A stretch of 64,000 nucleotides of DNA, taken from NCBI RefSeq assembly GCF_016734805.1, contig NZ_JAERQG010000003.1:248001-312000 (forward strand), given 5' to 3'. Positions 62,129 to 64,000 of this stretch are shown one piece after another. The notes beneath the pieces were generated by a model, which saw nothing but the letters and a program-made list of their open reading frames with translations, made no database searches and was not told the origin of the DNA. Positions within the stretch are counted from its first letter, which is position 1. The number at the start of each line of letters is the position of its first letter. The DNA comes from Marivirga atlantica. GTDB lineage: Bacteria > Bacteroidota > Bacteroidia > Cytophagales > Cyclobacteriaceae. Made by a program: the position numbers and the translations under genes.

Positions 62129-63232
62129 ATGGGTTTCTTTAGCAGCTTAAGGAGTGAATTCATTGATATTATTGAATGGACGGATAACTCCAGCAATACA
62201 TTAGTCTATCGTTTTGAAAGACATGACAATGAAATTAAAAACAATGCGAAACTGACTGTAAGAGAGGGGCAGGCAGCAGTTTTTATAAACGAAGGAAAAC
62301 TGGCCGATGTATTTATGCCTGGCATGTACAGCTTAAACACCCAGAACTTACCTATACTTTCCACTTTAAAAGGTTGGAAATACGGTTTCGATAGTCCTTT
62401 TAAGGCCGAAGTATATTTCGTTAACATGCGAAATTTTACAGACCAAAAGTGGGGTACCAAGAATCCGATTACACTTTCCGATAATCGTTTTGGGATGCTA
62501 GAAATCAGGGCTTTCGGAACATATGTGATTAAAGTAAAGGATCCTGCACTGTTCATAAAAGAGATAGTTGGAACGGATGGTCATTTTACAACAGAGGAGA
62601 TAGCCAATCAGCTTAGAAGTTTAATTGTAACAAGATTTACTGATGCCATAGGAGAAGCTGATTTGCCTGTAGAAAAATATGCTGCTAATACAAATGAAAT
62701 AGCTCAGCTCATTAAAGGCATCATGCAAGAGGATTTTAACGCATATGGTATTGACCTCACCAATTTTCTGATTGAAAATATCAGTATGCCTGATGAAATC
62801 AAGACAGAAATATTTGAGCTTAGTCGTTTGGACAGGGTTGACTTAGATAAATTTGCTAAGATCAAGGCTGCCAAAGCGATGGAAAAGGCTGCCGAAAATG
62901 AAAGCGGTACTGCTGGTGCCGGCATGGGTATGGGAATGGGATTTGCCATGGCTAACCAAATGGGTAATGCTTTTCAGGGAAACCAACAAAATAATCAGTC
63001 AGCTGGTGGGCCTCCTCCGTTACCAAATCAGACTAGCTTTCATGTCGCTATAAACGGTCAACAATCTGGCCCATATGACTTGAATACTTTACAGCAAATG
63101 ATCAACAGCAATCAGGTTAATAAAGACACACTTGTTTGGAAACAAGGTATGGCACAATGGACTGCTGCGGGCCAAGTAAGTGAATTAAGCCAGTTTTTTG
63201 GTAGTGTGCCTCCACCCTTACCTCCTCAATAA
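62129..63232 (+). CDS. SPFH-domain protein with C-terminal GYF_2 domain (YdjI-like)
   Basis: The 367-residue protein starts MGFFSSLRSEFIDIIEWTDNS, the opening of the YdjI 'virion core' branch of SPFH proteins. The SPFH core follows (NAKLTVREGQAAVFINEGK, and EIRAFGTYVIKVKDPALFIKEIVG). Residues about 258-280 are a Gly/Met/Ala-rich linker. The C-terminal part (about 303-355) is a GYF_2 domain (AINGQQSGPYDLNTL, DTLVWKQGMAQW), which usually binds proline-rich peptides. The tail is proline-rich (PPPLPPQ). SPFH proteins scaffold membrane microdomains. An upstream start at 62018 lacks similarity. The next gene begins immediately after its stop. Confidence 0.88.
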   Translation: MGFFSSLRSEFIDIIEWTDNSSNTLVYRFERHDNEIKNNAKLTVREGQAAVFINEGKLADVFMPGMYSLNTQNLPILSTLKGWKYGFDSPFKAEVYFVNMRNFTDQKWGTKNPITLSDNRFGMLEIRAFGTYVIKVKDPALFIKEIVGTDGHFTTEEIANQLRSLIVTRFTDAIGEADLPVEKYAANTNEIAQLIKGIMQEDFNAYGIDLTNFLIENISMPDEIKTEIFELSRLDRVDLDKFAKIKAAKAMEKAAENESGTAGAGMGMGMGFAMANQMGNAFQGNQQNNQSAGGPPPLPNQTSFHVAINGQQSGPYDLNTLQQMINSNQVNKDTLVWKQGMAQWTAAGQVSELSQFFGSVPPPLPPQ

Positions 63233-64000
63233 ATGGACGAGCAAAAAGAAGCAGCTGCAAATAACGTAATTACTTTTGGCTGTACTGATTGTGGTGCAGA
63301 CCTAAAGTATGAACCTGGTACTACCTCGCTTACTTGCGAATATTGCGGTGCAAAAAATGATATCCCTGCTGTTGATGATGACATAGAAGAGTTGGATTAT
63401 GAAGCTTTTCTAAACAAGGAAACCGCCACAGCAGATGAAATGACCATCAATCTGGTCAAGTGTCATGTTTGTGCTGCCGAATCTAGCCTGGAGCCTCATG
63501 TAACATCGGCTAATTGCCCCTATTGCGACTCGTCATTGGTAGTGGAAGATGCTCATGAAGAGAGTGTATTAAAGCCAAAGAGCTTGCTCCCCTTCAAACT
63601 AAAGAAGGATGAGGCCATCGCACAATTTAGAAAGTGGATAAAAAAGTTATGGTTTGCTCCCAATGACTTGAAGAAAGCTGTTCTTTCGTTCGATCACTTT
63701 AAAGGTTTATACATCCCTTATTGGACTTACGATTCTGCCACACATACCAACTATACCGGTCAAAGAGGTACTTACTATTATGTGACTGAAAGTTATACCA
63801 CCACAGAAAATGGTAAAACTGTTCGGAAAACCAGACAGGTAAGGAAAACCAGATGGAGTTTTACCGCAGGCAGTATAAATCACTTTTTTGATGATGTATT
63901 AGTTCCTGCAAGTAATTCACTACCTAGAAAACAAGTAGAAGCCCTAGAGCCCTGGGACTTGAAGAACTTGGAGCCATTTACTCCCCAATATTTAAGTGGA
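63233..64000 (+). CDS. Zinc-ribbon protein (YdjG-like), truncated by window end
   Basis: The reading frame starts at the ATG directly behind the SPFH gene stop (no gap) and is open to the window edge, giving 256 residues. It has two zinc ribbons: Cys17/Cys20 with Cys35/Cys38 (CTDC, CEYC), then Cys77/Cys80 with Cys95/Cys98 (CHVC, CPYC). A positively charged stretch and the segment FKGLYIPYWTYDSATHTNYTG follow. In related YdjG-type proteins membrane helices come after this point, beyond the window. The name reflects resemblance to the zinc-ribbon protein of the Bacillus PspA operon and the SPFH partner; proof needs the missing part. Confidence 0.82.
   Translation, partial: MDEQKEAAANNVITFGCTDCGADLKYEPGTTSLTCEYCGAKNDIPAVDDDIEELDYEAFLNKETATADEMTINLVKCHVCAAESSLEPHVTSANCPYCDSSLVVEDAHEESVLKPKSLLPFKLKKDEAIAQFRKWIKKLWFAPNDLKKAVLSFDHFKGLYIPYWTYDSATHTNYTGQRGTYYYVTESYTTTENGKTVRKTRQVRKTRWSFTAGSINHFFDDVLVPASNSLPRKQVEALEPWDLKNLEPFTPQYLSG

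Follow-up and report, generated by a model that had tools for sequence, protein, structure and literature searches.

An SPFH-GYF_2 protein and a YdjG-type zinc-ribbon protein encoded as a PspA-free two-gene unit in Marivirga atlantica

In Bacillus subtilis, whose Psp network is described in PMC9239133, published work presents YdjI and YdjG as partners that bring PspA to the membrane. Passages of PMC8581546 report that YdjI is required for PspA foci, that the membrane recruitment of YdjI and PspA requires YdjG and YdjH, and that loss of YdjG or YdjH leads to bulged, curved cells under alkali shock. The two-hybrid contacts given there connect YdjG with YdjH, YdjH with YdjI, YdjI with PspA and YdjH with PspA, and none connects YdjG with YdjI. 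But what would such proteins do where PspA is missing? The locus studied here, from Marivirga atlantica, encodes an SPFH protein and a YdjG-type protein side by side and raises exactly this question. Are the two genes kept together in relatives? What holds the SPFH protein at the membrane? And what is the function of its tail?

The gene pair and its two proteins

The window, meaning the whole stretch of 64,000 nucleotides that was analysed, covers positions 248001-312000 of contig C8 in a genome of 4.19 Mb on 14 contigs. An earlier note on this DNA had described an SPFH-GYF gene followed with zero gap by a double-zinc-ribbon gene, and this is what the sequence holds: the stop codon TAA of the first gene is immediately followed by the ATG of the second at 63233. 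As the second gene ends 342 bases beyond the window, it was taken in full from the contig. The features of the pair are:

62129..63232, plus strand: SPFH-GYF_2 gene, YdjI-type (P0001); ATG at 62129, TAA at 63230-63232, 367 aa
62204..62830, plus strand: SPFH / Band_7_1 domain of P0001, residues 26-234 (Pfam PF13421, E 1.4e-97)
62912..62977, plus strand: Gly/Met-rich segment after the SPFH domain, residues 262-283 (alignment)
63011..63025, plus strand: first proline motif, PPPLP, residues 295-299, just ahead of GYF_2 and found in relatives too
63041..63187, plus strand: GYF_2 domain, residues 305-353 (Pfam E 3e-21, 75.4 bits against a cut-off of 25.8)
63209..63223, plus strand: C-terminal proline motif, PPPLP, residues 361-365 (sequence)
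63233..64000, plus strand: zinc-ribbon gene, YdjG-type (P0002), with the first 256 of 369 residues in the window; the gene ends at C8:312342
63281..63346, plus strand: zinc ribbon 1 of P0002 (C17, C20, C35, C38; 18-sequence alignment)
63461..63526, plus strand: zinc ribbon 2 of P0002 (C77, C80, C95, C98; 18-sequence alignment)

Both neighbours of the pair lie on the minus strand, opposite to it; upstream is a periplasmic-binding-protein gene, and downstream come a methyltransferase gene and then a peroxiredoxin gene. The unit thus comprises two genes. A linked TPM or PspA gene beyond position 64000, which the earlier note had proposed to look for, was sought and is absent, the next gene being on the other strand. 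That note had also held that unrelated downstream genes and a lack of linkage in relatives would speak against it: the downstream genes are indeed unrelated, because the unit has just two genes, and the relatives do keep the two genes linked (see below). A sigma-70 promoter scan stayed at chance level. The GC3 values of the two genes, 0.354 and 0.347 against a mean of 0.316 (sd 0.033) for 24 chosen ORFs of the window, carry no strong foreign-DNA signal. The neighbouring methyltransferase gene has a match in 15 of 30 other family genomes, the best with only 47% identity. A phage origin of the pair was considered and is unsupported: viral contigs were scanned twice by pattern, and neither protein had a confirmed relative there.

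P0001 has no predicted transmembrane segment, and its GYF_2 domain is the sole GYF_2 match in the genome. Part of its SPFH region falls near stomatins of known structure in a profile search (best E 4e-4), and a stretch similar to its Gly/Met-rich segment can be seen by eye in its relatives and in Bacillus YdjI. Folding without an alignment gave weak models only, with a mean pLDDT of 40 for the whole protein and of 60.6 for GYF_2 plus tail, most of the tail lying below 50.

Only P0002 of the pair has a predicted transmembrane helix, which is C-terminal: its single hydrophobic segment (residues 349-367, mean hydropathy 2.7) lies outside the window. The C-terminus of Bacillus YdjG peaks at 1.56, just below the threshold of 1.6 used by the script. 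Across 18 sequences including Bacillus YdjG, seven of the eight ribbon cysteines are invariant and C35 is nearly so; the columns N332, G336, G340, P343 and S345 are also invariant and form an NGQTGxVxGxxPxS-like motif. In Pfam the ribbons stay below the curated cut-offs, the sole non-ribbon match is a weak one to DUF3094 (E 0.32), and no family of its own for the middle region stands among the matches listed. Could the pair be a known defence system? This idea was dropped: P0001 has no PADLOC match, and P0002 has just four, all weak (HEC-08 is the best, E 1.4e-5), which match best within residues 6-100, the ribbon part.

The best profile matches of the P0002 ribbons include TFIIB- and RNA-polymerase-type ribbons, and regulatory DNA binding is one published reading of YdjG, found in passages of PMC9239133. 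Might the pair then be a zinc-responsive or regulatory device, in which the ribbons attach to nucleic acid or to RNA polymerase while the SPFH protein keeps this membrane-held regulator sequestered until stress releases it? We consider this improbable. The similarity is at ribbon level only and below the Pfam cut-offs, whereas the rest of P0002 is conserved across phyla and matches no family among those listed; moreover, a membrane-held regulator would probably have to be set free by proteolysis, and the comparison of family loci shows no conserved gene next to the pair.

How close is the kinship to the Bacillus proteins? The ydjG genes of Bacillus tequilensis and B. spizizenii were located via a primer sequence from PMC8581546. 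BLASTP aligns P0002 collinearly with B. tequilensis YdjG over 343 columns (27% identity, E 2e-36) and the SPFH part of P0001 with B. spizizenii YdjI over 265 columns (31% identity, E 2e-36). The likeness to YdjI and YdjG first noticed in the window thus holds, for YdjG over the full length and for YdjI over the SPFH part, and judged from these alignments P0001 and P0002 are homologous to the two proteins.

Linkage, spread and the place of PspA

A P0002 match at E 0.001 or better was found in 15 of 296 genomes of the same phylum. Strong Band_7_1 SPFH proteins (E 1.3e-37 or better) occur in 42 of the 296, including all 15 carriers of P0002. The SPFH and YdjG-type genes are adjacent in 12 of these 15; in the other three, all of one genus, they lie unlinked on different contigs. 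Three of the 15 P0002 matches are weak (G067, G180 and G271, E 1.5e-5 to 1.9e-7); the tails of their SPFH neighbours look SHOCT-like by eye, and the three were excluded from distances and trees as too divergent. At L035 and L036 a SHOCT-like-tailed SPFH gene is followed by two divergent tandem zinc-ribbon genes with weak matches to the YdjG profile.

Within its own family the pair is patchy, as a match at 1e-50 or better occurs in 42 of 390 genomes (2 of the 10 listed in its own genus). Where it occurs, the linkage is tight: the best 30 of the 42 family loci, own locus included, all have, next to the YdjG-type gene and in the same orientation, an SPFH gene whose product ends in a GYF-type tail. 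Wider windows were compared for 18 chosen family loci and the own locus. Both genes of the pair are present in all 19, any other gene family in at most five, and the search for a third conserved gene therefore ended without a candidate; since the pair alone is shared by all, it sits in different surroundings in different genera. In one genus of the family (g4; L224, L225, L227, L228 and L232) three homologous genes in tandem, each coding for about 600-810 aa, come after the pair, and two more genes upstream of the pair are common to all five loci.

The distances among SPFH proteins and among YdjG-type proteins correlate with r 0.91 over 48 pairs and r 0.89 over 30 family pairs, values that shared species ancestry alone can produce. 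The Bacillus row in these distances and in the first trees combined B. spizizenii YdjI with B. tequilensis YdjG. As the first trees differed locally, a partner swap in the own genome was envisaged; it was rejected after family sequences had been added, with which the six closest relatives are identical and in the same order for both genes. Most of the relatives examined keep the two genes together as one unit, as the 30 of 30 family loci and 12 of 15 phylum carriers attest, and the linkage expected by the earlier note is upheld.

Is this a speciality of Bacteroidetes, as had been suggested? That part of the proposal does not stand. The pair is also found in Bacillota and, from the neighbourhood of one record each, on plasmids of Vibrio, Paracoccus, Pseudorhodobacter, Comamonas, Tsukamurella and Enterococcus, the Enterococcus plasmid having a TPM gene after it. 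In the plasmid pFER4 of Paracoccus ferrooxidans (L041, 3542-8260) the pair is linked to a gene of a toxic-anion-resistance family: TelA, DUF2927, SPFH-GYF and YdjG-type genes form one same-strand run.

The other part, a module free of PspA, does stand. A profile search of the whole own genome for PspA_IM30 (PF04012) gave no match, in agreement with the absence of PspA first noted, and the same profile was positive in 9 of 14 known genomes used as a control. Two TPM matches exist in the own genome, both on contig C6 and neither linked to the pair. Could the system be split, with the pair working together with a PspA/ESCRT-III-type protein that is encoded elsewhere and missed by Pfam? PspA_IM30 is over the cut-off somewhere in 7 of the 15 phylum carriers, but in the other eight, the own genome included, nothing exceeds it, and in none of the 15 does a match adjoin the pair. 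The nearest (66 bits, over the cut-off) is separated from the YdjG-type gene by 7.3 kb and lies on the opposite strand, in a genome (G034) that has its SPFH gene on another contig than the YdjG-type gene. A split system is thus very hard to credit.

Which arrangement, then, prevails in Bacillota? Of 199 genomes sampled from the phylum of B. spizizenii, this species included, 15 match YdjG below 1e-50 and another 31 have weak matches only, mostly to the ribbon part alone. SPFH is adjacent or one gene away at 11 of these 15 loci; of the four without it, one is at a contig end and one has its gene cut by a contig end. PspA is found at 4 of the 15 (L167-L170, with B. spizizenii itself among them) and TPM at 9 (one called by Pfam), counts from PspA and YdjH profiles that were built from single Bacillus sequences and could therefore miss remote copies. 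Seven of the 11 SPFH-bearing loci are without PspA. In an unrooted tree of 36 YdjG sequences (G254, L178 and L179 left out; 6 of 29 other family sequences used), the PspA-linked genes occupy two places: three group within a clade that is mostly TPM-linked, and the fourth stands apart from them with weak support. Being unrooted, this tree fits PspA as an addition and does not prove it.

Exchangeable tails, proline motifs and the proposed working

What follows the SPFH domain differs among the relatives. A Pfam scan of 18 aligned SPFH proteins found GYF_2 in 14, SHOCT in two, HTH_17 in one and a zinc ribbon in one; on this domain evidence the tail is exchangeable between GYF_2, SHOCT, HTH and zinc ribbon. 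The tails were compared further in 50 SPFH proteins (21 from the first sets and 29 further family ones), of which 43 are GYF-type by pattern. All 43 have PPP within their last 14 residues, against none of the seven others, and in 42 of them it takes the form PPP[LIVPM]P, the exception being Vibrio. A PPP-like motif before GYF_2 was called by pattern in 38 of the 43; in the other five the pattern began inside the motif, and their printed tails all show PPP[LIV]P at that place. Thirty of the 43 come from one family and are therefore not independent.

Is this coupling peculiar to SPFH proteins? As a control, 20 GYF_2 proteins without SPFH were collected from 198 genomes (one further locus gave no match). 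In seven of these 20 a PPP follows the domain at a distance of at most 35 residues, three of the seven being tandem genes of one genome (G076), so the motif is not specific to the SPFH scaffold. That GYF_2 is often accompanied by a PPP motif supports a putative cis or self ligand in general. In G076, which is of the same family, the three tandem GYF_2 proteins (C4:313068-315537; L149, L157, L164) continue after the domain with PPPL, PPPL and PPPI. The GYF tail is also not tied to YdjG, since one genome (G231) has an SPFH-GYF protein and no YdjG match anywhere. On a Bacteroides finegoldii plasmid SPFH-GYF likewise occurs without YdjG, and the second gene on encodes a different zinc-ribbon protein.

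Several SPFH genes of the phylum that lack YdjG adjoin other zinc-ribbon genes. A Zn_ribbon_RanBP gene lies beside SPFH in L088, a DUF4178 gene with ribbon-like cysteines in L095, and among the ORFs printed for L087 and L090 SPFH has no zinc-ribbon-type neighbour. In one genus (g13; L091-L094) there is a conserved four-gene run of a Band_7_1 SPFH gene with a tail that is SHOCT-like by eye, an 80-aa zinc ribbon, a protein of about 314 aa and one of about 318 aa, the last being DUF6620 in L091, the sole copy checked. In L096-L098 and L103 the next gene after a SHOCT-like-tailed SPFH gene encodes a Gly-rich stretch close to its N-terminus; in L096, again the sole copy checked, it has a Tim44-like domain.

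What could GYF_2 bind? One possibility is an outside client with a proline-rich tail, which GYF_2 would recruit for gathering, the protein's own PPPxP serving as an autoinhibitory plug that the client displaces. PPP motifs on both sides of GYF_2 in the SPFH proteins would suit such a plug, the seven of 20 non-SPFH proteins are what a general cis-plug would lead one to expect, and human CD2BP2 uses its GYF domain to bind sites that contain PPPGHR segments, according to passages of PMC12034629. However, no candidate client is conserved beside the pair in the 19 family windows, and a second GYF_2 protein is absent from the own genome; we regard the client as possible and rather doubtful. A putative contact of GYF_2 with the protein's own tail fits the conserved PPPxP tail.

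The evidence tips slightly towards the pair being a self-contained, two-gene scaffold of YdjI/YdjG type at the inner membrane, which would work without PspA and without a linked TPM protein. P0002 would be tail-anchored, its ribbons and middle domain facing the cytosol, and would recruit the soluble SPFH protein to the membrane. With YdjH and PspA lacking here, it is simplest to suppose that tail-anchored P0002 itself keeps the SPFH assembly in place there. The latter may form a ring or cage on the membrane like other SPFH proteins, and its GYF_2 domains may bind the flanking PPPxP motifs, either of neighbouring subunits or in cis. These contacts would set or regulate assembly and tie subunits together, a role that SHOCT, zinc-ribbon or HTH tails could take over in relatives. 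Under envelope stress the assembled scaffold may stabilise either the membrane or membrane proteins in its vicinity; this role in stress we infer from B. subtilis YdjGHI only. Several points tell against this self-contained scaffold as the best explanation: the two-hybrid contacts reported for B. subtilis link YdjI with YdjH and not with YdjG, and no linked YdjH is present here; the two genes are unlinked in three of the 15 phylum carriers, SPFH is missing at four of the 15 Bacillota loci, and the pair is patchy within its family.

A bolder version, which we put forward tentatively and rate as somewhat less than probable, takes the SPFH-YdjG dyad rather than PspA as the autonomous core of the membrane system and as a two-gene cassette mobile across loci and phyla, to which PspA and TPM were added in some Bacillota. 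The tail would be a plug-in part, and a self-zipper of GYF_2 and PPPxP would enable assembly free of PspA.

Comparison with known systems

A PspA-free pair in several phyla implies that YdjI/YdjG-type proteins have a job of their own, and the pair offers a minimal system of two proteins for finding that job. GYF_2, SHOCT, zinc-ribbon and HTH tails on one SPFH scaffold form a natural tail-swap series through which the role of such short C-terminal domains can be tested, and PPPxP is a defined candidate ligand for a bacterial GYF_2 domain.

How new is the arrangement? A literature search whose coverage leaves most subscription journals outside found no description of a PspA-free SPFH-GYF and YdjG pair. 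Passages of PMC11237479 (2024) describe the coupling in Firmicutes of PspA with band-7 and zinc-ribbon proteins, with YdjG and with TPM, and assign to YdjG two ribbons, an NTF2-like domain and one transmembrane segment. The network presented there centres on PspA and its partners; a two-gene PspA-free unit is not seen in these passages, and the term GYF does not occur in the main text as available. PMC2636767 classifies prokaryotic SPFH proteins, and 'ydjI' is absent from its text in the form consulted. Being absent from the passages of these sources, the pair is called a new variant of the YdjI/YdjG kind: the kind is known and this variant is undescribed in them.

Where does the tail have its nearest counterparts? 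The closest solved relative of the P0001 GYF_2 domain is the GYF_2 region of the Myxococcus gliding protein GltJ, which we take PDB 7z3c to be; the record is entitled 'Adventurous gliding motility protein X', and the name GltJ comes from an NCBIfam match over the same residues. The match is limited to the GYF_2 part, about residues 298-361 of P0001. Proteins that combine Band_7_1 (PF13421) with SHOCT share with P0001 the same SPFH domain and a short C-terminal domain, band 7 (PF13421) being the commonest partner of SHOCT according to passages of PMC3581485; P0001 has GYF_2 instead of SHOCT.

The closest system as a whole is that of Bacillus. P0002 shares with YdjG two four-cysteine zinc ribbons, a conserved middle region and a hydrophobic C-terminus, and P0001 shares with YdjI the SPFH domain, the Gly/Met-rich stretch behind it and the lack of a transmembrane segment. 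Compared with pspA-ydjGHI, the pair has neither PspA nor a linked YdjH/TPM gene, and its order is SPFH and then YdjG with zero gap. P0001 ends in GYF_2 with PPPxP motifs, whereas the tail of Bacillus YdjI is a zinc ribbon.
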